From the NCBI RefSeq assembly GCF_005771525.1, contig NZ_VAVZ01000013.1, positions 1 to 64,000 of the forward strand: a stretch of DNA of 64,000 nucleotides. The letters are read 5' to 3'. Each line of letters opens with the position of its first letter. Within the stretch, counting starts at the first letter, position 1. Below, in pieces: positions 9,926 to 46,287 of the stretch. The notes below the pieces were generated by a model. The model ran no database searches. It had not been told where the DNA came from and saw only the letters and a list, made by a program, of their open reading frames with translations. The position numbers and the translations under genes are program-made. The stretch comes from Nesterenkonia salmonea. GTDB taxonomy: Bacteria; Actinomycetota; Actinomycetes; Actinomycetales; Micrococcaceae.

Positions 9926-12351
9926 AACGGAACAAGACCGAGGACCTCAGGGCCGAATTCGTCGAGCGCTTCGGACGTGAGCCTGACGGGATGTGGGCCG
10001 CTCCTGGGCGGGTCAACCTGATCGGTGAACATACCGACTACAACGATGGGCTCGTGCTGCCGTTCGCACTGCCGCAGAACACACTCGCCGCGGCGAGCCG
10101 GAGATCAGACACCACACTCCGCGTGCACTCGGTCAATGCCGCCGAGTCGGAAGAGTTTGACCTGGCCACCTTGGCTCCGGGAGCCCACCAGGGGTGGTCC
10201 AGCTACGTGGCCGGCGTTTTCTGGGCGCTCCACGAGGCGGGATACGCACCGGCGGGCATGGACATCGCTGTCTACACCACGGTGCCTCTGGGAGCGGGTC
10301 TATCCTCTTCCGCCGCGTTGGAATGCGCCGTAGCATGCGCGGTGGCAGAGCTTTCCGGCCACCAGATAGCACCGCTGGAGCTGGCCACGATCGCCCAACG
10401 GGCCGAGAACGAGTACGTGGGCATGCCCTGTGGGCTGATGGACCAGATGGTCTCGATGGTGGCCCATGAAGGGTATGCGGTCCTTTTCGATACCCGCAGC
10501 CAGCAGGTGCAGCACGTGCCGTTCGCAGGGGAGCACGCGGAGATTCTTGTTATCGACACCAAAGCTCCGCACAAGCTGGTGGACGGCGAATACGCCGCTC
10601 GCAGGTCCCAATGCGAACAGGCCTCGACAGAGCTTGGTTTGGCCTCATTGCGGGAGCTCAACGACGTCGCCGAGGACGCATTGGACTCAGCTCTATTCCA
10701 GCTCAGCGACGATGTTCTGCGGCGCCGGGTTCGACATGTGGTCACCGAAAACCAGCGAGTGCTCGATATGGTCGAGGCGCTGCAGACGGGCAGGCTCGAT
10801 GCCGTCGGCGCGCTGATGAACGCTTCGCATGCTTCGCTTCGTGACGACTACCAGGTCACCGTGCCAGAGGTGGATCTCGCCCAGCGCATCCTCGTCTCCG
10901 CGGGGGCCTACGGGGCTCGTATTACCGGGGGAGGATTCGGCGGATGTGTGATTGCCCTCATCGACGCAGGCACGGGTGAGTTTCTGCAGCACAAGGTGGC
11001 AGAGGCCTACGCGGAGGCAGGCTTCACCGCTCCTGAGCACTTCGTCGCGGTGCCGTCCAGTGGGGCACGGCGTGTCAGCTCCGCTCGTAACTGGGCCGGA
11101 AACATCGAATACTCAGCGCGCCGAATCGCAGCTCCGCACAGCTATGACGACCTGCGAAGCCTCATCACCTCTGGAGACCGGGTCAAAGCTGTTGGCAGCC
11201 GCCACAGCTTCAGCACCGTCGCCGACACAACGGGCGATCTCATCAGCCTGGAAGATCTGCCCCGGGTCTTCGAAATCGACGACAGGGCACACACGGTCAC
11301 AGTGGATGCCGGTATCCGATACGGAGAGCTGGCACAACGGCTGCAGGAGTCTGGGTGGGCCCTGCAGAACATGGCGTCGTTGCCGCATATCACCGTGGTC
11401 GGATCTGTGGCAACGGGCACCCATGGATCAGGGGACCAGGTTCCTGCGCTATCGGCTGCCGTCAACGCGGTGGAGCTGATGCTGGCTGACGGCAGCACCG
11501 GTGTGTGGCGCCGCGGTGATCACGACTTCGGCGGCGTCGTCGTCAGCCTGGGAGCATTGGGTGTGGTCACTCGCCTCAGTCTGGACATCGTGCCCAGCTT
11601 TGAGCTCCGGCAAGATGTATATGGCGGACTGCAGTGGCAGGCTGTCCTGGAAAACTTCGAGGTCCTCACAGGGTCCGCCTACAGCGTGAGCCTTTTCACC
11701 CGGTGGGTGGGAGAGACTTTTGGACACGCCTGGCTGAAGTCAACACAGAACCCGCCAGAAGAACTGCTGGGTACACGCGCGCTGGCCCACGACGTCGGAT
11801 TGGTCGAGGGTGCGGTAGAAGCGACCACAGCGCAGTCGGGAGTCTGGGGAAGTTGGGATTCTCGCCTGCCGCATTTCAAGCTCCACTTCGCACCCAGCAA
11901 CGGCGACGAGTTGCAGAGTGAATACCTTCTTCCGCGCGAACAGGCGGTGGAAGCTCTTCGCCGAATACGCTGTCTGGGGTCGCGCATGGAGCCACATCTG
12001 TTGCTCAGCGAAGTCCGCACCATGGCGCCGGATGATCAGTGGATGAGTCCTGCCTACGGCCGTCAGACGGTGGGCATCCACTTCACATGGCGTCAGCACC
12101 CCACGGAGGTGGCTGCGCTGCTTCCGCTGATCGAAGAGCAGCTCATGCCGCTGGGAGCCCGTCCTCACTGGGGAAAGCTCTTCGCCGCCTCGCAACTGGG
12201 CGAGCTTTACCCCAAGTTTTCCGAATTCCGTCGGCTCGCGGCACAGCTTGATCCCGAGGGGCGCTTTCGAAACGCCTACCTCGACCGATTGTTCGCGCAC
12301 GACGGTGCTGACGGGTATAAGGTTGATCCAGATCACATTCCATCGTTGTAG
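9922..12351 (+). CDS. galK: Fusion protein: galactokinase + alditol-oxidase-like FAD enzyme
   Basis: 809-aa open frame joining two enzymes normally encoded separately. Residues 1-386 are a complete GHMP galactokinase: 'APGRVNLIGEHTDYNDGL', the ATP-binding 'PLGAGLSSSAALE', and the C-terminal 'ITGGGFGGCVIAL'. Residues 390-809 match actinobacterial alditol oxidase (AldO/xylitol oxidase) from its first residues: 'NWAGNIEYSARR', then 'GSRHSF' with the His expected to carry covalent FAD, 'NMASLPHITVVGSVATGTHG', 'YSVSLFTRW', 'SEVRTM' with the catalytic Glu/Arg pair, and 'HWGK' with the active-site Lys. The kinase ends at 'GARRV' and the linker is only a few residues. The kinase would phosphorylate galactose; the oxidase domain should oxidise a polyol with O2, releasing H2O2. 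No frameshift or stop is visible at the junction (11071-11090). Confidence 0.88.
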   Translation: MKRNKTEDLRAEFVERFGREPDGMWAAPGRVNLIGEHTDYNDGLVLPFALPQNTLAAASRRSDTTLRVHSVNAAESEEFDLATLAPGAHQGWSSYVAGVFWALHEAGYAPAGMDIAVYTTVPLGAGLSSSAALECAVACAVAELSGHQIAPLELATIAQRAENEYVGMPCGLMDQMVSMVAHEGYAVLFDTRSQQVQHVPFAGEHAEILVIDTKAPHKLVDGEYAARRSQCEQASTELGLASLRELNDVAEDALDSALFQLSDDVLRRRVRHVVTENQRVLDMVEALQTGRLDAVGALMNASHASLRDDYQVTVPEVDLAQRILVSAGAYGARITGGGFGGCVIALIDAGTGEFLQHKVAEAYAEAGFTAPEHFVAVPSSGARRVSSARNWAGNIEYSARRIAAPHSYDDLRSLITSGDRVKAVGSRHSFSTVADTTGDLISLEDLPRVFEIDDRAHTVTVDAGIRYGELAQRLQESGWALQNMASLPHITVVGSVATGTHGSGDQVPALSAAVNAVELMLADGSTGVWRRGDHDFGGVVVSLGALGVVTRLSLDIVPSFELRQDVYGGLQWQAVLENFEVLTGSAYSVSLFTRWVGETFGHAWLKSTQNPPEELLGTRALAHDVGLVEGAVEATTAQSGVWGSWDSRLPHFKLHFAPSNGDELQSEYLLPREQAVEALRRIRCLGSRMEPHLLLSEVRTMAPDDQWMSPAYGRQTVGIHFTWRQHPTEVAALLPLIEEQLMPLGARPHWGKLFAASQLGELYPKFSEFRRLAAQLDPEGRFRNAYLDRLFAHDGADGYKVDPDHIPSL

Positions 12352-38710: not shown

Positions 38711-40513
38711 GTGGCACATCTACTTGGCGCTGAGGCTCTGCATATCGAGTATCCGACGCATACTGTCTTCGAATCCATCACTCTGGGCGTCAACGAAGGT
38801 GACCGGATTGGCATAGTCGGCCATAACGGGGGTGGCAAATCGACGTTGCTCGGAATGCTCTCCGGAAGCGTGGAACCAGACTCCGGCCGGGTCACTCGCC
38901 GCAATGGGGTGCGGTTCGGGGTGCTGGACCAATCTGATGATCTGCAGCTCACCGACACAGTGGGCTTTTCGATCGTCGGGGATCAGGCTGACCACGAATG
39001 GGCCTCCGATGCCAAGATACGAGAGGTCATCTCCGGACTGGTTTCCGACCTGCCATGGAACGCCACCATCGACTCTCTCAGTGGTGGCCAGCGAAGGCGG
39101 GTCGCTCTGGCGAAACTGCTCGTGGGGGAGTGGGACCTGATCGCCCTCGACGAGCCCACCAACCACTTGGACCTCGAAGGCATCGCCTGGTTGGCACGTC
39201 ATCTCAAACGCCGTTGGGCAAAGAACTCTGGTGGATTGCTGATCATCACCCACGACCGGTGGTTCCTCGATGAAGTGTGCACCACCACCTGGGAAGTCCA
39301 CGACGGAACTGTGGAACCCTTCGACGGAGGCTATGCCGCCTATGTGCTTCAGCGCGTCGAACGGGACCGCCAGGAGGCCGCAGTAGAGGCCAAGAGACAA
39401 AACCTCATGCGCAAGGAACTCGCCTGGTTACGTCGCGGCGCCCCCGCGCGCACATCGAAACCAAAGTTTAGGATCGACGCCGCCAATCAGCTCATCAGCG
39501 ATGTTCCCCCGCCGCGGGACAGCATTGAGCTGAAGAAAACGGTGACTGCCCGGCTGGGCAAGGACGTTGTTGACCTGCTTGACGTTTCAGTCAGCTACGG
39601 GGACAAAACTGTCCTGAAGGAAGTCACCTGGCGTATCGCGCCAGGTGAGCGCACAGGCATCCTGGGACCCAACGGCGCAGGAAAATCCACGCTGCTGGGA
39701 CTAGTGGCAGGCACTGTGGAGCCTAGCTCGGGGCGCGTCAAGCGTGGCAAGACCGTTGAGATCGGGATCTTGGACCAGCAGTTTTCGCAGCTGTCAGAGA
39801 TCGAAGGAGACAGGGTCCGTGAAGTGCTCGCGAGGGAGAAAACGGAAGTGATGGTGGAGGGCAAGGAGCTCACCCCCTCCCAGCTCCTGGAACGCTTGGG
39901 CTTCTCCCGTGCTCACCTGTCCTCGCGGGTGGGGGACCTCTCTGGCGGCCAACGGCGTCGTCTCCAGCTGTTGCTGGTGCTGCTCAGTGAACCGAACGTG
40001 ATGATTCTCGACGAGCCGTCGAACGACGTCGACCTCGATATGCTTGCTGCCATTGAGGACCTGCTTGACTCTTGGCCAGCCACACTTCTGGTGGTCTCTC
40101 ATGACCGCTACCTGTTGGAGCGCGTCACCGACCAGCAGTACGCCATCCTCAACGGCGTGTTTCGCCACGTCCCTGGGGGTGTCGATGAATATTTGGAGCT
40201 CCGGGAGCAGCAGGACACCACAAGTTCCAACCCCAAGCAGCCGAACCCCACGGGCTCAGGTGCGCAACAGCAGGATGCCGGGTCCAGCCTCTCCGGCCCC
40301 GAGCGCCGTGCTGCGCAGAAGGAAGCCTCCTCCATTGAGCGAAAGCTGCAGAAACTCCAGGAGAAGGTCCACGCCTTGGATGCGCACATGGCGGCTCATG
40401 ACCAGAGCGACTTCGAGGCCCTTGGCAAAATCACAGCCGAGCGGCAGCAGGTTGCGGCTGAAGTTGACGAGCTCGAGGAACGCTGGTTGGAACTCTCCGA
40501 ACTGACCGACTGA
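38711..40513 (+). CDS. ABC-F family ATPase (Uup-like)
   Basis: 600-aa soluble protein with two ABC ATPase domains and no membrane segment. Domain 1 has Walker A 'GHNGGGKST', signature 'LSGGQRRRVALAKLL' and Walker B 'LIALDEPTNHLD'. Domain 2 has 'GPNGAGKST', 'LSGGQRRRLQLLLVL' and 'VMILDEPSNDVD'. The inter-domain linker (about residues 220-280, 'RQEAAVEAKRQNLMRKELAW') is the ribosome-contacting helical arm. A C-terminal coiled coil from about residue 530 to the end resembles Uup. ABC-F proteins act on the ribosomal E site or in DNA repair; a resistance role is possible but not indicated. Translation probably starts on a leaderless GTG. Confidence 0.93.
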   Translation: MAHLLGAEALHIEYPTHTVFESITLGVNEGDRIGIVGHNGGGKSTLLGMLSGSVEPDSGRVTRRNGVRFGVLDQSDDLQLTDTVGFSIVGDQADHEWASDAKIREVISGLVSDLPWNATIDSLSGGQRRRVALAKLLVGEWDLIALDEPTNHLDLEGIAWLARHLKRRWAKNSGGLLIITHDRWFLDEVCTTTWEVHDGTVEPFDGGYAAYVLQRVERDRQEAAVEAKRQNLMRKELAWLRRGAPARTSKPKFRIDAANQLISDVPPPRDSIELKKTVTARLGKDVVDLLDVSVSYGDKTVLKEVTWRIAPGERTGILGPNGAGKSTLLGLVAGTVEPSSGRVKRGKTVEIGILDQQFSQLSEIEGDRVREVLAREKTEVMVEGKELTPSQLLERLGFSRAHLSSRVGDLSGGQRRRLQLLLVLLSEPNVMILDEPSNDVDLDMLAAIEDLLDSWPATLLVVSHDRYLLERVTDQQYAILNGVFRHVPGGVDEYLELREQQDTTSSNPKQPNPTGSGAQQQDAGSSLSGPERRAAQKEASSIERKLQKLQEKVHALDAHMAAHDQSDFEALGKITAERQQVAAEVDELEERWLELSELTD

Positions 40514-40559: not shown

Positions 40560-40655
40560 ATGAAGGTCACACCTGCCACGCGATTCGTGGCTCTGCTTCT
40601 GGTGGCCCTACTGATCCTCAGCATCGGAGCCGGAGCCTTCTCAAGCCTCATATAG
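40560..40655 (+). CDS. 31-aa membrane peptide (small ORF)
   Basis: ATG AAG start behind a strong GCAGGAGGAG ribosome binding site (spacing about 8-10 nt). The predicted 31-residue product has a short basic N-terminus 'MKVTPATRF' followed by one hydrophobic helix 'VALLLVALLILSIGAGAF' and ends 'SSLI'. It looks like a single-pass membrane micropeptide. The stop lies 11 nt before the preferred kinase GTG, so the two are probably one transcript. It is too short for standard gene calling. Function unknown; a regulator or partner of the adjacent membrane-anchored kinase is a guess from position. Confidence 0.55.
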   Translation: MKVTPATRFVALLLVALLILSIGAGAFSSLI

Positions 40656-40666
40656 GGTTGCCACCA

Positions 40667-41863
40667 GTGGGTGACATATTCGCAGGGCGCTACGAGCTGG
40701 TTGACCCCCTCGGTGAGGGTGGTGCTGGCGTGGTCTGGCGCGCCTGGGATCGCAAGACATCGCGCTATGTGGCCGCTAAAGTGCTGCGTCAGGTAGATGC
40801 CGCATCATTGCTGCGGTTCATGCGTGAACAGTCCATGCGCCTCGAACACCCCCATGTACTCGCTCCCACAGGGTGGGCTGGGGAGGACGACAAAGTGCTC
40901 TTCACGATGCCGATCATTCGTGGTGGGTCGGTCTCCACCCTGGTCAACGATTTCGGCCCACTGCCCTCGGCGCTGACGGCAGTGCTGCTGGACCAACTAC
41001 TGGCTGCGCTGGAGGAGATCCACGCCGAAGGCATCGTTCACAGGGACGTTAAACCGGCGAACCTCATGTTGGACGCCACCGGACGCGGCATGCCACGACT
41101 CTGGCTGGGTGACTTCGGAATTGCCGCAGGGGACAACGCGCCGCGCCTGACCCAGGGGCCGTTCGCTATGGGTACGCCGGGGTATGTCGCACCTGAGTGC
41201 CTCCACCAGGGGTGGCAGCCTCACGCCCCAGCTGATCTCTACGCAACTGGCATGTGTGCCGTGGAAATGCTCACTGGCACGGCGCCCGAGGCTGAGACCC
41301 ATGTCCTCCAGGCATTCTCCATGGCGGAGCGTGAGGAGCCTATCCCACTGGAGCTGACGCGCGTGGTGGCCCGGCTCGGGCAGGCCGTCATTACCGAGCG
41401 CTATCAATCTGCTTCAGACGCTCGCGCGGCCCTGGCTGCAACGGGTCTCTTGAGGTCCCAGGCCGCCGAAGAAATCCTCCAGGACATTGAAATCTTCGAC
41501 CATATTCCCGACCTGCCCGAAGGCTGGGACGAAAACGGGCCTGCCTCAGAGAATCCAACGCGGCCGCGGGCCGTATCCACGACGCGCGATTTGCCGGCCC
41601 CGTCGCCGCAACGGCCACTTTCTGTCCCGCAGCTGGCTGTCCGCGACCGGACGACTGACCAGGGATATGTCTCCTATGAGCCTCAGTCGCGGGATCTCAA
41701 TGGCGCCCGGAATACTGTTGCGCCGCAACAGAGCCCTGCACCGCGTGCGCCCGCACTGAACGAGACTCGGAGAAAGCGGGCCCAGGGTCTCGCAATCGCC
41801 TTCATCCTTTTCGGCCTCGGGCTCCTTGTGTTGGCTGCAGCGCTGTTTCTGGGGTTCAGCTGA
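40667..41863 (+). CDS. Membrane-anchored Ser/Thr protein kinase
   Basis: 398-aa Hanks-type kinase. Kinase domain about residues 5-260: glycine loop 'LGEGGAGVVWRAWD', ATP Lys in 'VAAKVL', catalytic loop 'IVHRDVKPANLML' and metal loop 'GDFGIA', followed by 'GTPGYVAPE' in the activation segment. A Pro/Arg-rich linker leads to a single C-terminal helix 'GLAIAFILFGLGLLVLAAAL' with only a few residues outside, so there is no PASTA or other sensor domain. GTG 40667, with AGGG about 9 nt upstream, is preferred; a TTG at 40658 is possible. It converges with two surface-protein genes, stops 2 nt apart. Substrate unknown. Confidence 0.87.
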   Translation: MGDIFAGRYELVDPLGEGGAGVVWRAWDRKTSRYVAAKVLRQVDAASLLRFMREQSMRLEHPHVLAPTGWAGEDDKVLFTMPIIRGGSVSTLVNDFGPLPSALTAVLLDQLLAALEEIHAEGIVHRDVKPANLMLDATGRGMPRLWLGDFGIAAGDNAPRLTQGPFAMGTPGYVAPECLHQGWQPHAPADLYATGMCAVEMLTGTAPEAETHVLQAFSMAEREEPIPLELTRVVARLGQAVITERYQSASDARAALAATGLLRSQAAEEILQDIEIFDHIPDLPEGWDENGPASENPTRPRAVSTTRDLPAPSPQRPLSVPQLAVRDRTTDQGYVSYEPQSRDLNGARNTVAPQQSPAPRAPALNETRRKRAQGLAIAFILFGLGLLVLAAALFLGFS

Positions 41864-41865
41864 CC

Positions 41866-43200
41866 TCACTCATCCGCCGGCCGTTTCTGCAAGACCTTCG
41901 CAAGGAAAATTCCGCCTCCTATGAGGAGCAACAGACCAAGCACCCCTATCCCAATCGCCGTGGCCTGGCCGGTGCTGAGGCCTGTGCCCGAACCGTCTGT
42001 GTCCGCGGGCGAGATGGGGGAGGCATCGTATTCAGGAGGTGGGTCATCGGAAGCGTCGTAGACCGCGGTGGTGAGCCGATACGGAACCTGAAAATCAGCT
42101 TCTTCCTCGCTCGGTTCCATGGCGACGGCGAGGTAGTAGCCGCCCGGGACTATCGCGTGGCGAGCATTGTCTCCCGCGCTCTGGGCGTAACGTCCGGCCC
42201 AGGTGATGGGGTAGGACTGGGCACGCAGGGTTGTGGCATTCGCGTGGTCCACCCGACTCGATAGGTTCTGCTCGGCTGCTTCTCGCTGCCCCCCTGGTGT
42301 GACCGCTCCGCGGTATGGGCTGACGATTGAGATCTGCGCGTCAGTCCATCCGCTGAGACTCTCGGAGAGTTCACTGGTGGGTTCTGGGAAGAACACCTCT
42401 GCCTGAATCTGCTGATCCCAGTCGGCGTCGACACGGAAAATGTGCACTTCTCCGGGTGCCAGCTGCGCGTCGTAGGTCAGACCCGGTTCGACTTGTGGGG
42501 CGTCGTGCCACGTCGTTCCCGGCTCGATGGGGTTATCGGCCTCTCTGTCGCGCTGGAGTTCATACCAGGGGACGCCGTCTTCTCCCCAGAGATCTGAATC
42601 ATCCTCAAACGCGTCTCGGAGTTCCTCTGCGCCGACCGGTTCGGGCTCTTCCGCCACCAGAATTTCGAAGTCCTGTTCGCGAAGATCCTCACCGAGTGTG
42701 TTGACTGCTAGGAGGAGCTCGCTGTCGGAGCCGCAACCGGGAACGGCCTGACCGCTCTCAGGGTCGAGCGGTGCCGTGGCTCGAACCTGAGTGCCGCGGA
42801 GCAGATTACCCGCACTGGAGGCTTCCCAGCCAAGTCGGTCTGAGTCGCAGCTGTCTCCCTCTAAAGTGCTGAGTTCAACATCGACATCGTCGGTCGTCTC
42901 GCCGTCAGTGCCGTGAGTGGTCAGGCCCACATGGAGGGTGGAGTCTTCCATGGTCCGGCCCACACGGTAGAACATGGTCTCGGCGTGGAAGGTGTCGATG
43001 TAGAGCTGACCGGGCTCCAGGACCGGGGCATTGTCCTGGTTGGAACCCGCCTCGACCCGGTCCCCACGCCATGAGGTATTTTCGTCTGCAGTGGCAGCCA
43101 CAGCCGGCGGTGCCAGTGCCAGTGCCAGCACCGCCGCTAAGGTACCGCCGAAACCGGCGGCACGCTTAGGTGTCTGGACCATAGTCGGGCTCCTGTTCAC
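41866..43200 (-). CDS. Secreted membrane-anchored protein, paralogue of adjacent vWA protein
   Basis: 444-aa surface protein of unknown function. An N-terminal signal peptide ('FGGTLAAVLALALAPPAVAA') is followed by an acidic extracellular region, then one C-terminal membrane helix 'GIGVLGLLLLIGGGIFLAKVL' and a short basic tail. It matches the C-terminal two thirds of the upstream vWA protein: 'GSNQDNAPVLEPGQLYIDTF', 'FYRVGRTMEDSTLHVGL', 'WDQQIQAEVFFPEP' and 'ISIVSPYRGAVTP' have close counterparts there, but the vWA domain is absent. The GTG start overlaps the upstream stop (GTGA), so expression is coupled. Cysteine pairs could form disulfides outside the cell. Confidence 0.8.
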   Translation of the reverse strand: MNRSPTMVQTPKRAAGFGGTLAAVLALALAPPAVAATADENTSWRGDRVEAGSNQDNAPVLEPGQLYIDTFHAETMFYRVGRTMEDSTLHVGLTTHGTDGETTDDVDVELSTLEGDSCDSDRLGWEASSAGNLLRGTQVRATAPLDPESGQAVPGCGSDSELLLAVNTLGEDLREQDFEILVAEEPEPVGAEELRDAFEDDSDLWGEDGVPWYELQRDREADNPIEPGTTWHDAPQVEPGLTYDAQLAPGEVHIFRVDADWDQQIQAEVFFPEPTSELSESLSGWTDAQISIVSPYRGAVTPGGQREAAEQNLSSRVDHANATTLRAQSYPITWAGRYAQSAGDNARHAIVPGGYYLAVAMEPSEEEADFQVPYRLTTAVYDASDDPPPEYDASPISPADTDGSGTGLSTGQATAIGIGVLGLLLLIGGGIFLAKVLQKRPADE

Positions 43201-45383
43201 TGACGCGTTGTGTCTTCAGAGTTGGACGATGAGAGGACTCGCGCCAGGATGAACCCGCCGACCGCTAATAGGAGAACGGCCAAGGCGCTGAGGCCGAGCA
43301 GTAATCCTGTCGCTCCAGACAGGAAGCCCGTTTGCTCCGTTGCCAATGCTTCCTCATTCTCGTCGCTGCTGGCATCCTCGGGTTCACTGTCTGTAGGTTC
43401 TGCTGGCGGTTCCGAAGCAGACTCAGTGTCTTGGGGAACTGCCTCTTCATCGGTTTCAGCCGGTTCGGGCTCAGGTGCCGCTTCTGTTGAGTCCGCCTCT
43501 CCTGTGCTGGATGCCTCGGCCGAATAGTCGGGGACCTCCGCATCAATGAAGTCGAACGTGTCCGCTGTGAGCCGGTATGGCATGGAATAGCTGACGTTGT
43601 CATCAATGGGTTCCGCGCTGACAACTACGTAGTAGTCTCCTGCCACGGTAGCCGGGTGTTCACTGTTGCCTCCCGAGGTGCTGTAGCGGTTGGGCCACCA
43701 CACTGGATGAGTGAAGCGGTGCAGTGTCGTGGCGTCGGTCCGGTCAAGCCTGGAGCGAGCATCGGCGATATCCGAGCCGCTGCTGTTGCGGGAGGGCGTG
43801 GCGGAGCCGCGGTAGGGGCTGAGAATGTCGAGGTGGATCTGGGTGGAGTTGGATTGGATGTTCTCTGAAGGTGCGCTGTCAGGCTCGGGGAAGAACGCTT
43901 CGGCCTGGATTTGCTGATGCCAGTCGGCGGCGACTCGGTACACTTGGACCTCACCGGGAAGGATGTCGGTGTCATAGGTCTCTCCTGGTTCCAGTTCAGC
44001 CGCGTTGTTCAGCGAGTTACCTGCGATGATCTCCTCATCGTTATCCCGGTCCCGTGGCATGTCTTGCCATTGGAGGTCGTCTGCTTCCCACGGCAGGCCT
44101 TGATCTTGGTAGTCGAGGTAGTAGGCCTCGCCGTTAGTGGGGTCGGGCTCTTCTTCAATAATGAGCTCGAATGGTTGACCCAGGATTTCGTCACCCTCGC
44201 CGAAGCGTCCACCGGAGTGAATGGCCAGAAGAAGTTCGTCGTTTTCCCAGCAGCCGGCATCACGGCTCTCCCCGTCGTATTCTGGCGCGGCGGAGATTTG
44301 AGCTGTGCGGAACAGGTTCGCGCCGGTGGTGCCCCACCGGTTGACCCGGTCTCTCCCGCAGGTTCGGTTATCGCCCATCGTCGTCAGTTCGATTTCTGCG
44401 TTTTCCCAGTTGTCCGCACTGTCGTTGTAGGTCGCGATGCCTACGTGGAGTGTGGAATCCTGCATGTTGCGGGGGACCCGGTAGTACATTGTTTCGTACT
44501 CGAAGCTGCCGATGTATTGAGCCCCGGGCTCCAATACGGGCGCGTTGTCCTGATTCGATCCCGGCTCCACCTCTTCGCCGAAGAGGCTGAAAGGCATCTG
44601 GGCCCGGTAGGTGATCCGCTCCAGCGTGTGGGTGAGCGTTTCGGCGTCGGTTGCGTCGAAGTAGTCGCCGCCGCCTGCTTCAGCAATGCACTGCAGCTGC
44701 TCACGGGCGGCCTCGGACTCCTCATCCTCGATCTGGAATCCGACGGTATGGATGGCGACGTCAATGCCTTGGTCGGCGATCGCTTGAGCGGCTTCGCATG
44801 GATCCTCGACGCAGTTCTCCTCACCATCGGAGACTAGGACGATAGTGCGGTTACCTTCATCGCCAAGGTCATCGGCTGCTTCTTCCAAGGCGTGGGCCAG
44901 CGGGGTGCGAGCACCCACGGCGTCATAGTCGTCGATGGCGGAGCGGAGTTCATCCCTGTTGTCAGTGTCGATGTCCACCACCAGGCGTGAGTCCTCGCAG
45001 GCTTCAGGTGCTTCACTGTCCGTGACTTCTCCTGCGAACACTCGCAGCCCCACGTGTTGGTGGTCTTCGAGGGAGTCCACCACGCTGTTGAGAGAGTCTT
45101 TGGCCGCAGCGATTCGTGTCTGGTCACCTGCATCATCTGCATTCATGGAGCCGGAGGCGTCCATGACGAGAATCATTTCAGAGTGTTCCATCTGGTGCCT
45201 GGGATCCTGCGCAGTATCGTCTGAATCCTCTGGCCCGGTGGTCAGTGGTGTTCCGTAGGCACTTGGCATGAAAGCCCCCACCAGAATTGCTGTGAGGGTC
45301 AGGCCGGTCAGGGTTCGAAGCGGGGTGGCCGTGGAAAATGGTGTGCGCTTCGACTCGGGGTAGGTTGAAGGGTGTGGTGTCAT
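43197..45383 (-). CDS. Secreted vWA-domain surface protein
   Basis: 728-aa secreted, membrane-anchored protein. Signal peptide near residues 22-44 ('TLTGLTLTAILVGAFMPSAYG'). A von Willebrand A domain spans about 68-260 with an intact MIDAS: 'VMDASGSM' (Asp75, Ser77, Ser79), Thr in 'ARTPLAHAL' and Asp in 'LVSDGEENC'. A middle region shared with the downstream paralogue covers about 270-630. A Ser/Glu/Pro-rich stalk (about 635-695) leads to the final helix 'GLLLGLSALAVLLLAVGGFIL' and a cytosolic tail. vWA domains bind protein ligands through a metal. Divergent from the HTH regulator at 45604, with putative operators in its promoter. The ligand is unknown. Confidence 0.86.
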   Translation of the reverse strand: MTPHPSTYPESKRTPFSTATPLRTLTGLTLTAILVGAFMPSAYGTPLTTGPEDSDDTAQDPRHQMEHSEMILVMDASGSMNADDAGDQTRIAAAKDSLNSVVDSLEDHQHVGLRVFAGEVTDSEAPEACEDSRLVVDIDTDNRDELRSAIDDYDAVGARTPLAHALEEAADDLGDEGNRTIVLVSDGEENCVEDPCEAAQAIADQGIDVAIHTVGFQIEDEESEAAREQLQCIAEAGGGDYFDATDAETLTHTLERITYRAQMPFSLFGEEVEPGSNQDNAPVLEPGAQYIGSFEYETMYYRVPRNMQDSTLHVGIATYNDSADNWENAEIELTTMGDNRTCGRDRVNRWGTTGANLFRTAQISAAPEYDGESRDAGCWENDELLLAIHSGGRFGEGDEILGQPFELIIEEEPDPTNGEAYYLDYQDQGLPWEADDLQWQDMPRDRDNDEEIIAGNSLNNAAELEPGETYDTDILPGEVQVYRVAADWHQQIQAEAFFPEPDSAPSENIQSNSTQIHLDILSPYRGSATPSRNSSGSDIADARSRLDRTDATTLHRFTHPVWWPNRYSTSGGNSEHPATVAGDYYVVVSAEPIDDNVSYSMPYRLTADTFDFIDAEVPDYSAEASSTGEADSTEAAPEPEPAETDEEAVPQDTESASEPPAEPTDSEPEDASSDENEEALATEQTGFLSGATGLLLGLSALAVLLLAVGGFILARVLSSSNSEDTTRQ

Positions 45384-45436
45384 TCTGGTGATTCCTTCGG
45401 TGTCACGACGCCCCGCTCTCAGACATCTGAACTACA

Positions 45437-45450
45437 TTTGCTAGAGCAAA
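45437..45450. promoter_or_regulatory. Operator copy 1 of the HTH regulator (putative)
   Basis: Perfect inverted repeat TTTGCT-AG-AGCAAA. It overlaps the predicted -10 (TATGTT, minus strand 45454-45449) of the vWA operon. Its centre is 22 bp, two helical turns, from the centre of copy 2. Confidence 0.7.
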
Positions 45451-45477
45451 CATATAAGGTTGCTATAGCAAAGTCAA
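45449..45477 (-). promoter_or_regulatory. Promoter of the vWA-protein operon
   Basis: Minus strand: TTGACT (45477-45472), 17-bp spacer, TATGTT (45454-45449). Operator copy 2 fills most of the spacer and copy 1 begins in the -10, so a bound dimer pair would exclude RNA polymerase. The start codon is at 45383, giving a leader of about 60 nt. Confidence 0.55.
45460..45471. promoter_or_regulatory. Operator copy 2 of the HTH regulator (putative)
   Basis: Perfect palindrome TTGCTATAGCAA, extended by one more A/T-type pair with a mismatch. It has the same half-site (TTGCT/AGCAA) as copy 1 and lies within the spacer of the vWA promoter. Confidence 0.7.
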
Positions 45478-45565
45478 TAGCTTGGTGTGCGCCTGTCTCC
45501 CTCGGGTTGCAGGGGCCTGTCGGCCCACTTCGGAAGTCTCCGCCGCCTGCATCCATGCCGTAGAG

Positions 45566-45579
45566 TTTACGGTAGCAAA
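45566..45579. promoter_or_regulatory. Operator copy 3, imperfect, before the HTH gene (putative)
   Basis: TTTACGGTAGCAAA: the right half-site AGCAAA is intact and the left half is degenerate. It lies 25 nt before the regulator start and just after a TAGAGT -10-like box (45561-45566), which suggests weak autoregulation. Confidence 0.45.
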
Positions 45580-45603
45580 CAGACTGCAAAGGAGTGTGTG
45601 TGA

Positions 45604-46137
45604 GTGATGAGTGATACGACCCACACTAATCGGCAAGCTCAACGGGCTGCCTACGGCGAGCCGCTGAATGAGACATTCGATCGAATCCGACAGGCTTTCG
45701 GGCTCAACCAGGCAAGTCTGGCGAGCATCCTGGGCCTGTCAGCCCCGATGCTCTCGCAGCTCAACAGCGCGCAACGCGTAAAGATTGGAAACCCAGCGGT
45801 GCTTTCTCGTGTCCATCAACTCAATGAGTTGGTCGACCAGCTGAACTCCGGACAAGCTCACACTGAGGAGATACCTGCACAGCTGGAGCACATCAAAAAC
45901 TCCAAGGGCACCATGGGGCGGACCACTCAGCTCATGGCGGATCAAGCCTCCGACGCGGCAGTTGTGGCCGGTATCCGTAGTCTTCTGCGCGCTGTCGCCT
46001 CCGGCGCTGAGATTCGTGAATCAGCCGACCTGCTGGAAACTTCCCACCCTAAATTGGCTGAAGTTCTGCGGATTTACGGCACCGGGCCGGCCCATCCGGC
46101 AGTCGATCACTTCGTTGAACACAAAGATCTGTTCTGA
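45604..46137 (+). CDS. HTH (XRE-like) transcriptional regulator
   Basis: 177-aa DNA-binding protein. The helix-turn-helix is near residues 24-60: 'TFDRIRQAFGLNQASLASIL' and 'LSAPMLSQLNSAQRVKIGNP', where the 'QASLASILGLSAPMLSQL' segment has the XRE/Cro pattern. The C-terminal part (about 105-177) is helical and may be for dimerisation or sensing. AAAGGAG (45588-45594) precedes adjacent GTG (45604) and ATG (45607) starts. Repeated TTTGCT/AGCAAA palindromes in the divergent gap make it the likely regulator of the vWA operon and of itself. A tRNA-Gln gene follows 48 nt later. Confidence 0.82.
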   Translation: MMSDTTHTNRQAQRAAYGEPLNETFDRIRQAFGLNQASLASILGLSAPMLSQLNSAQRVKIGNPAVLSRVHQLNELVDQLNSGQAHTEEIPAQLEHIKNSKGTMGRTTQLMADQASDAAVVAGIRSLLRAVASGAEIRESADLLETSHPKLAEVLRIYGTGPAHPAVDHFVEHKDLF

Positions 46138-46185: not shown

Positions 46186-46256
46186 TCCGCCATGGTGTAA
46201 AGGCAGCACATCGGTTTTTGGTACCGGTAGTCTAGGTTCGAGTCCTAGTGGCGGAG
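46186..46256 (+). tRNA. tRNA-Gln (anticodon TTG)
   Basis: 71-nt cloverleaf. The acceptor stem TCCGCCA pairs with TGGCGGA, the anticodon stem TCGGT pairs with ACCGG, the loop TTTTGGT has anticodon TTG at 46218-46220, and the T arm contains GGTTCGAGTCC. The discriminator base is G and CCA is not encoded. It lies between the HTH gene and glmU. Confidence 0.95.
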
Positions 46257-46287
46257 CTTGATGACAACTGAGAGCAGGAGCGCCTAC

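Follow-up and report, generated by a model that had tools for sequence, protein, structure and literature searches.

We analysed a window of 64,000 nucleotides (nt) from the 3.28-Mb genome of Nesterenkonia salmonea (positions 1-64,000 of contig NZ_VAVZ01000013.1; genome G000 of our sample), in which a membrane-tethered Ser/Thr kinase, two exported proteins and a small helix-turn-helix (HTH) regulator are encoded side by side. The kinase, a tail-anchored Hanks-type protein of 398 amino acids, lies on the forward strand from its best start, a GTG at 40667, to the end of its stop codon at 41863. Facing it on the reverse strand are the genes for an exported, membrane-anchored ectodomain protein, par (41866-43200), and for an exported, membrane-anchored protein of 728 amino acids (43197-45383) that joins the same ectodomain to a von Willebrand factor A (vWA) domain. 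Kinase and par converge with 2 nt (41864-41865) between their stops, and the vWA stop overlaps the GTG start of par by 4 nt. The HTH gene diverges from the vWA gene on the forward strand (45604, a GTG, to 46137; likely start ATG 45607) and encodes a putative XRE-like regulator with a Thr-rich linker (G-R-T-T) and a helical C-terminal part. Our reading of the open reading frames agrees with the initial annotation on the layout, the coordinates, the 2-nt gap and the coupling of the vWA/par pair.

The kinase assignment is straightforward. In a Pfam scan the protein matches PF00069 with E=2.5e-35 (122.6 bits against a cut-off of 31.7), and its catalytic Lys, HRD and DFG motifs are intact, as all three are in 15 of 15 aligned relatives. 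A C-terminal membrane helix is followed by a few residues and no extracytoplasmic domain, just as had been proposed for a kinase without a sensor of its own. It falls well short of the PASTA kinases (144 bits against a cut-off of 450 for NCBIfam NF033483) and has no PASTA repeats. Elsewhere in the family, in genera other than Nesterenkonia, relatives of the kinase (L093, 8567-10057; L094, 3866-5242) have a longer stretch after the membrane helix than the Nesterenkonia kinases.

The vWA protein matches PF00092 in a direct protein scan (E=9.8e-14, 52.4 bits against a cut-off of 23.8), unlike a six-frame PF00092 search of its own genome, which gave no match at E<=0.001. The metal-ion-dependent adhesion site (MIDAS) is complete, as first annotated (DxSxS, T and SDGE are present), and its motifs are found in the window protein and in 10/10 aligned relatives. 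Judged by eye, the C-terminus of the vWA protein and that of par each consist of a membrane helix with a short tail behind it. Nothing in par scores above a Pfam cut-off, and the same holds for the 65 members of the ectodomain family that we collected, which also lack a sequence match in the PDB. The ectodomain model, built on par, has a mean predicted local distance difference test score (pLDDT) of 89.1 and a predicted template modelling score (pTM) of 0.91, and consists mostly of beta strands in two sandwiches. Its top Foldseek matches are the s3a-s3b tandem of collagen-binding domains of ColG (PDB 5iku, E 3.2e-8) and the ectodomains of the SID1 family (E 3.8e-9). Tandem beta-sandwiches are common to all of these; with TM-scores of only 0.23-0.34 for the two matches, the resemblance is at most a possible sign of homology. 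Assignment to the PPC domain (PF04151) was tried and rejected, there being no match among the 65 members up to E=1.

Within the genus, kinase and ectodomain proteins are present or absent together. Among 30 Nesterenkonia genomes (our own and 29 others), 12 combine the HTH gene with genes for an ectodomain protein and for an orthologue of the kinase (56-100% identical), all beside tRNA-Gln/glmU, except that in G008 the kinase is at the edge of another contig; the other 18 lack both kinase and ectodomain proteins. The ectodomain is thus found in 12/12 genomes with the kinase vs 0/18 without (Fisher 1e-8), and the HTH gene in 12/12 vs 2/18 (1e-6), by tests that ignore relatedness. The two non-carriers that keep the HTH gene are G009 (N. 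haasae) and G013, the latter with a longer linker and a marginal match to the tail of the vWA query (E 8.4e-4, residues 621-712) that we did not count as an ectodomain. At the N. haasae locus (L085, 5160-5897) the kinase and vWA/ectodomain genes are missing between a micropeptide gene and the HTH gene, before which a one-mismatch operator remains; the G013 locus (L086, 5059-5945) is a decaying module that retains 29 residues of a kinase, at 90% identity to that of the window. For 15 of the 16 remaining non-carriers the region upstream of glmU was read, and tblastn found no module gene there; in the sixteenth, G025, no match to glmU was obtained. A GlmU tree covering 29 of the 30 genomes requires at least 7 switches between carrier and non-carrier, and well-supported branches force 4 of these.

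The module is not confined to Micrococcaceae. The HTH family occurs in 16/396 sampled genomes of the order and 60/394 of the class, and in 39/39 of the family that contains Streptomyces (f37). We kept 80 named loci of at least 566 confirmed stretches, 70 of them from Streptomyces and close labels; in 70/70 of this Streptomyces group the kinase gene follows the HTH gene on the same strand. Outside Nesterenkonia and f37 we examined 30 loci (14/14 order hits outside Nesterenkonia and 16/19 class hits outside both), of which 23 have HTH, kinase and ectodomain genes, 2 HTH and ectodomain, 1 HTH and kinase, and 4 the HTH gene alone. Taken together, 114 HTH-bearing loci divide into 90 with all three genes, 17 with HTH and kinase (11 of them cut off by the end of the contig at the kinase or close to it), 3 with HTH and ectodomain, and 4 with HTH alone. 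These counts leave out L084-L086 (a contig piece, G009 and G013), L094-L098 (G034, G040 and G045, with kinase, HTH or vWA apart), and L099-L103 and L105-L107 (same species as loci already in). The full set occurs in eight family labels, f1 and f37 included. Gene order varies, yet in 89 pairs the kinase and ectodomain genes occupy opposite strands; their stops are a median of 14 nt apart, and 21 of the pairs overlap by 4-37 nt (six large negative distances come from pairing with non-adjacent copies). The linkage of kinase, surface pair and HTH gene first suspected from position in the window is thereby borne out, and what emerges is a genuine module, found widely and apparently not yet studied.

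One part of the original proposal needs revision, namely that the vWA pair as such is the partner of the kinase. The ectodomain is constant and the vWA domain is not: in 4 of the 12 Nesterenkonia carriers (G002, G003, G004, G019) the match to the vWA query begins only at residue 262, and the vWA profile is strong in only 6 of 54 Streptomyces-group loci with an ectodomain gene (L135, L140, L146, L155, L158, L176). Surface proteins vary from 1 to 3 copies, with or without vWA. By these profile matches, what consistently accompanies the kinase is an ectodomain family that Pfam lacks, and the vWA domain is optional. In N. alkaliphila (G014; L087, 6522-12581) the cassette is expanded to two vWA proteins and one paralogue, with tandem operators before both vWA genes. 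A phosphorylated VWA protein, SRIM_014225, is reported in PMC9600765.

Judging by sequence and gene neighborhood, the kinase is the orthologue of Streptomyces coelicolor SCO3860. The assignment depends on the resemblance of the kinase tails and on the landmarks of the Streptomyces lavendulae locus, which lies between peptidyl-prolyl isomerase/rhomboid genes and gyrA/gyrB. SCO3860 is predicted to be tail-anchored, and its tail, as given in Table 1 of PMC3087755, resembles that of the S. lavendulae orthologue. From gene order and number we infer that the DNA-binding protein SCO3859 is the HTH protein. Among the papers that the literature searches listed, the two are mentioned only incidentally, not as a system, and with no convergent ectodomain gene and no operator. 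(In PMC9779433, "SCO3859" seems a misprint for SCO3589.)

The HTH protein had been proposed to have its operators in the vWA promoter, and candidates are found exactly there. The palindrome TTTGC-N4-GCAAA occurs twice before the vWA gene (at 45437 and 45459), 22 bp apart. The predicted promoter (45449-45477, reverse strand) has a -35 element TTGACT at 45472-45477, a 17-bp spacer and a -10 element TATGTT at 45449-45454. Candidate operator 1 (GTTGCTATAGCAAA, 45459-45472, one mismatch) lies between the two elements, and candidate operator 2 (TTTGCTAGAGCAAA, 45437-45450, perfect) overlaps the -10. In 7/7 Nesterenkonia promoters printed, of the 12 carriers, and read by eye, operator 1 takes up the whole 17-bp spacer and is abutted by TTGACT, while operator 2 and a TA-rich -10 overlap, as would suit a repressor that blocks RNA polymerase. 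A degenerate operator near the HTH start (45566-45579, one mismatch to the palindrome) makes autoregulation possible. Three Streptomyces-group loci in which no ectodomain gene was detected still have a tandem operator immediately after the kinase (L112 11953, L126 11734, L138 11658).

The strict tandem pair TTGC-N4-GCAA occurs once in the 3.28-Mb genome, and a reversed-pattern control not at all. Upstream of vWA/ectodomain genes, tandem sites are seen again in most of the Nesterenkonia carriers and also in other families, usually with a spacing of 21-23 bp, and 70 mononucleotide shuffles of 14 loci contain none. Within promoter windows, 67.2 kb in all, there are 78 sites vs 30 in 1,876 kb elsewhere, a 73-fold enrichment. 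A site with at most one mismatch is present in 51 of 96 promoters (9/12 in Nesterenkonia, 21/54 in the Streptomyces group, 21/30 among the others); the best of 19 permuted half-sites reaches 4, 27 and 1 in these groups. The 27 belong to the half-site TGTTC, which we do not read as an operator because it occurs 486-701 bp upstream, within a single sequence that hardly varies and may be an RNA gene. Searched for across genomes, the strict tandem pattern is found in 8/30 of the genus, 7 of them carriers with the pair in the module, and in 10/394 of the class, mostly outside module carriers, since Streptomyces sites deviate from the strict pattern (with TGTGC half-sites). The class result neither supports nor refutes the operator. 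Both linkage and operator are strongly supported. A tandem palindrome with 20-bp spacing, seen outside the module in G023 (C6:45436-45467) and in the non-carrier G013 (C4:140314-140345), probably belongs to another regulator and was left out of the count.

Conserved sites also precede genes elsewhere in the genome. In the N. salmonea genome, the gene of an exported protein of 317 amino acids that matched no known family is preceded by a perfect site at C75:9912, a weaker site, recognised by eye, some 21 bp further along, and a third at 9955 with one mismatch. This protein occurs in 8 of the 30 genomes, all carriers (8/12 vs 0/18, Fisher p=8e-5); the upstream site pair, 43-45 bp apart, is present in 6/8 and a single site in 2/8. 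A second copy in G014, 27% identical, has no site upstream. In L240 (528-1481, reverse strand) and L253 (3360-4874, reverse strand) the operator-bearing 317-residue gene is followed by a gene for an AztD-like zinc chaperone (336 bits, below the 400-bit cut-off). The second candidate is a lipoprotein gene with a perfect upstream site at C130:72651, and it is a weaker target than the first. Matches occur in 7/30 genomes (6 of them with E <1e-20), and the association is significant with the HTH gene (Fisher p=0.005) and not with the kinase (p=0.15). The upstream site is perfect in G000, G009 and G001, has 1 mismatch in G026 and 2 in G002, and is absent from G013 and G006. Retention of the lipoprotein and its operator may explain why the HTH gene survives in G009, where kinase and surface genes are lost. 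Perfect single sites at C53:73594 and C119:23691 were dropped, as they lie inside reading frames. Given the position of the palindrome on the vWA promoter, its 73-fold enrichment and its presence ahead of two genes for exported proteins that are not linked to the module, the HTH protein probably represses a surface regulon.

The HTH protein itself matches Pfam families only below threshold (HTH_3 at 13.9 bits against 23, Xre-like-HTH at 16.8 against 25.8), and its profile finds no match in the PDB; a weak ThrE match (23.5 bits, cut-off 26.3) was treated as noise. Foldseek matches to its model are mostly of XRE/lambda type (C.BclI, lambda cI), with probability up to 0.96 and no E <0.2. Across 101 of 105 distinct but related HTH sequences (4 lack the anchor motif or are too short), Thr makes up 11.6% of the linker that follows the DNA-binding part vs 3.3% of the rest, and the T-richest 12-residue window falls in the linker in 98. 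The linker is predicted to be disordered, residues 102-112 being the sole segment of at least 3 residues with pLDDT <50 in the model. In the two species that keep the HTH gene without the kinase, G009 and G013, the protein is changed at 7 and 6 of the 70 positions invariant in the 12 carriers, compared with 0-2 for each carrier in a leave-one-out analysis. The invariant Arg before a Thr/Ser pair is altered in both; the G013 frame is open, its linker enlarged by an insertion. Such changes are what the loss of a functional partner would be expected to leave.

The reading that we favor, and to which we give slightly better than even credence, is of an actinobacterial surface-regulon switch, with the HTH protein as repressor, the kinase as input, the ectodomain proteins as output and likely sensor, and a feedback loop between them. 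It draws together the observed gene linkage, the anatomy of promoter and operators, the conserved sites before further genes and the pattern of loss and relaxation. The HTH protein would bind pairs of TTTGC-N4-GCAAA sites some 21-22 bp apart over the vWA/ectodomain promoter, where repression is likely, and in Nesterenkonia would also act at one or two other genes for exported proteins. The signal would enter through the membrane-tethered kinase, which would phosphorylate the HTH protein in its Thr-rich linker; this would alter the grip of the HTH protein on DNA and so switch the production of surface proteins on or off. Through their membrane helices, the exported ectodomain proteins would likely serve as the outside sensing half of the kinase, closing the loop. 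In a more specific form of this mechanism, which we think rather less likely than not, the tail-anchored kinase, having no outside domain, would obtain its sensor in trans by pairing membrane helices with the exported vWA/beta-sandwich proteins, and would directly phosphorylate the small repressor of those same proteins and of a wider surface regulon. Such a three-gene transmembrane switch of one kinase and one repressor, widespread in actinobacteria, would be new.

Several observations weigh against the surface-regulon switch. DNA binding by the HTH protein, phosphorylation of its linker and contact between kinase and ectodomain proteins are inferences, and what speaks for phosphorylation and binding is indirect. 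Single sites with at most one mismatch occur 28 times in the N. salmonea genome vs 34 for the reversed control, that is, at background frequency, and we therefore give weight to sites only where they are paired or conserved. Since Nesterenkonia supplied the motif, a test of it comes only from the other groups; a site is absent from 3/12 Nesterenkonia promoters and present in only 21/54 of the Streptomyces group. The HTH gene stands alone in 4/114 loci (one at a contig end), and six loci with room for an ectodomain gene show none (L112, L126, L138, L142 and L177 in the Streptomyces group, and L236). Kinase relatives occur apart or alone in G034, G040 and G045, exceptions to an arrangement in which most relatives keep kinase and vWA genes together. 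The absences within the genus include 4 of 18 non-carriers that are <90% complete, and the tree comparison, in which kinase and ectodomain move together in 4/4 independent well-supported pairs, is underpowered (p=0.125). The HTH model is moderately certain (pTM 0.55; five models from 65 to 83 pLDDT), and the insertion in G013 makes the alignment of the Arg column uncertain. Lastly, linkers rich in Thr/Ser are common in disordered regions.

The alternative that survives best is that the surface proteins sense nothing: they would be adhesins or wall-associated effectors under the control of HTH protein and kinase, the kinase responding to a membrane or cytoplasmic cue. A vWA domain with a complete MIDAS fits adhesion, the number and architecture of the surface proteins vary as noted, and 6/114 loci with room keep HTH and kinase genes without a detected ectodomain gene. 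The kinase, however, has almost nothing outside the membrane, and is never found without an ectodomain gene in the 12 Nesterenkonia carriers; we regard this alternative as doubtful, if quite possible. Alternatively, the HTH protein represses the surface genes while the kinase, regulated by the ectodomains, acts elsewhere, for instance on envelope or division proteins, and the locus is shared because the process is. PknB-type kinases do act on envelope targets, the convergent pairing of kinase and ectodomain genes is the most constant feature of the module, and no operator is seen before the kinase in the window. The invariable order of HTH then kinase on one strand in the Streptomyces group speaks against such a division of labor, as does a Thr-rich linker that is conserved, and altered where the kinase is lost, and we think it unlikely. 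An anti-phage or other conflict system, suggested by matches of the PADLOC PD-T4-6 profile to the window kinase (E=3.6e-48) and the S. lavendulae kinase (E=1.6e-53), is very improbable: many different PD-T4-6 models match at once, as in our judgement is expected of kinase-domain models, so that we take the matches as generic, the vWA protein and par have no PADLOC match, and the HTH gene is present in every sampled genome of the Streptomyces family, unlike a patchy defence gene.

The surface-regulon switch can be set beside known kinase systems. AfsK-AfsR in Streptomyces and PknH-EmbR in Mycobacterium are likewise pairs of a Ser/Thr kinase and a transcription regulator, with regulators of SARP type that carry other domains; the module instead has a small, putatively XRE-like HTH protein, a Thr-rich linker and exported partner proteins. 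With the PASTA kinases PknB and StkP it shares a membrane Hanks-type kinase, here without PASTA or any other extracytoplasmic domain. TerY-P triads combine vWA and kinase with a PP2C phosphatase. A PP2C phosphatase and a standalone vWA also mark the vWA-kinase-PP2C associations of PMC7159879. Genes for vWA and kinase proteins are common to those sets, to TerY-P and to the module, whose vWA domain differs in being exported and fused to the ectodomain, with no phosphatase among the module genes; a Pfam scan of the five module reading frames and of the ABC-F, GlmU-type and PRPP-synthase neighbors found no PP2C gene.

Many bacterial Ser/Thr kinases have signals and substrates that are not known. 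For this one, comparative genomics points to a probable substrate and phosphosite, to a DNA operator and the promoter that it would control, and to a probable outside partner from a family outside Pfam, and all of these predictions can be tested in genetically tractable Streptomyces.

Upstream of the kinase lie an ABC-F-type gene (38711-40513, PF00005 match) and, on the forward strand, the reading frame of a membrane micropeptide of 31 amino acids (40560-40655, with AGGAGG ahead of its start and no Pfam match), which the initial annotation had counted among the partners of the kinase. It ends 11 nt before the kinase start, and between G000 and G009 its codon changes are mostly synonymous (6, against 2 non-synonymous at the last two codons), as a regulator of the kinase might show. 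It is kept without the kinase, however, directly behind the ABC-F gene in G009 and in G005 (87%), and a tblastn search at E 1e-3 gave no sign of it in the other kinase carriers. We assign the micropeptide to the ABC-F gene because it is retained where the module is absent; a role as kinase regulator is largely refuted and hardly credible. The membrane peptide behind the ABC-F gene is conserved in three related genomes (window 40560-40655; L322, 435-527; L085, 5805-5897). In G005 the order is ABC-F, micropeptide, tRNA-Gln, glmU, with no module gene; in the window, the tRNA-Gln gene (46186-46257) and then a GlmU-type gene lie downstream of the HTH gene.

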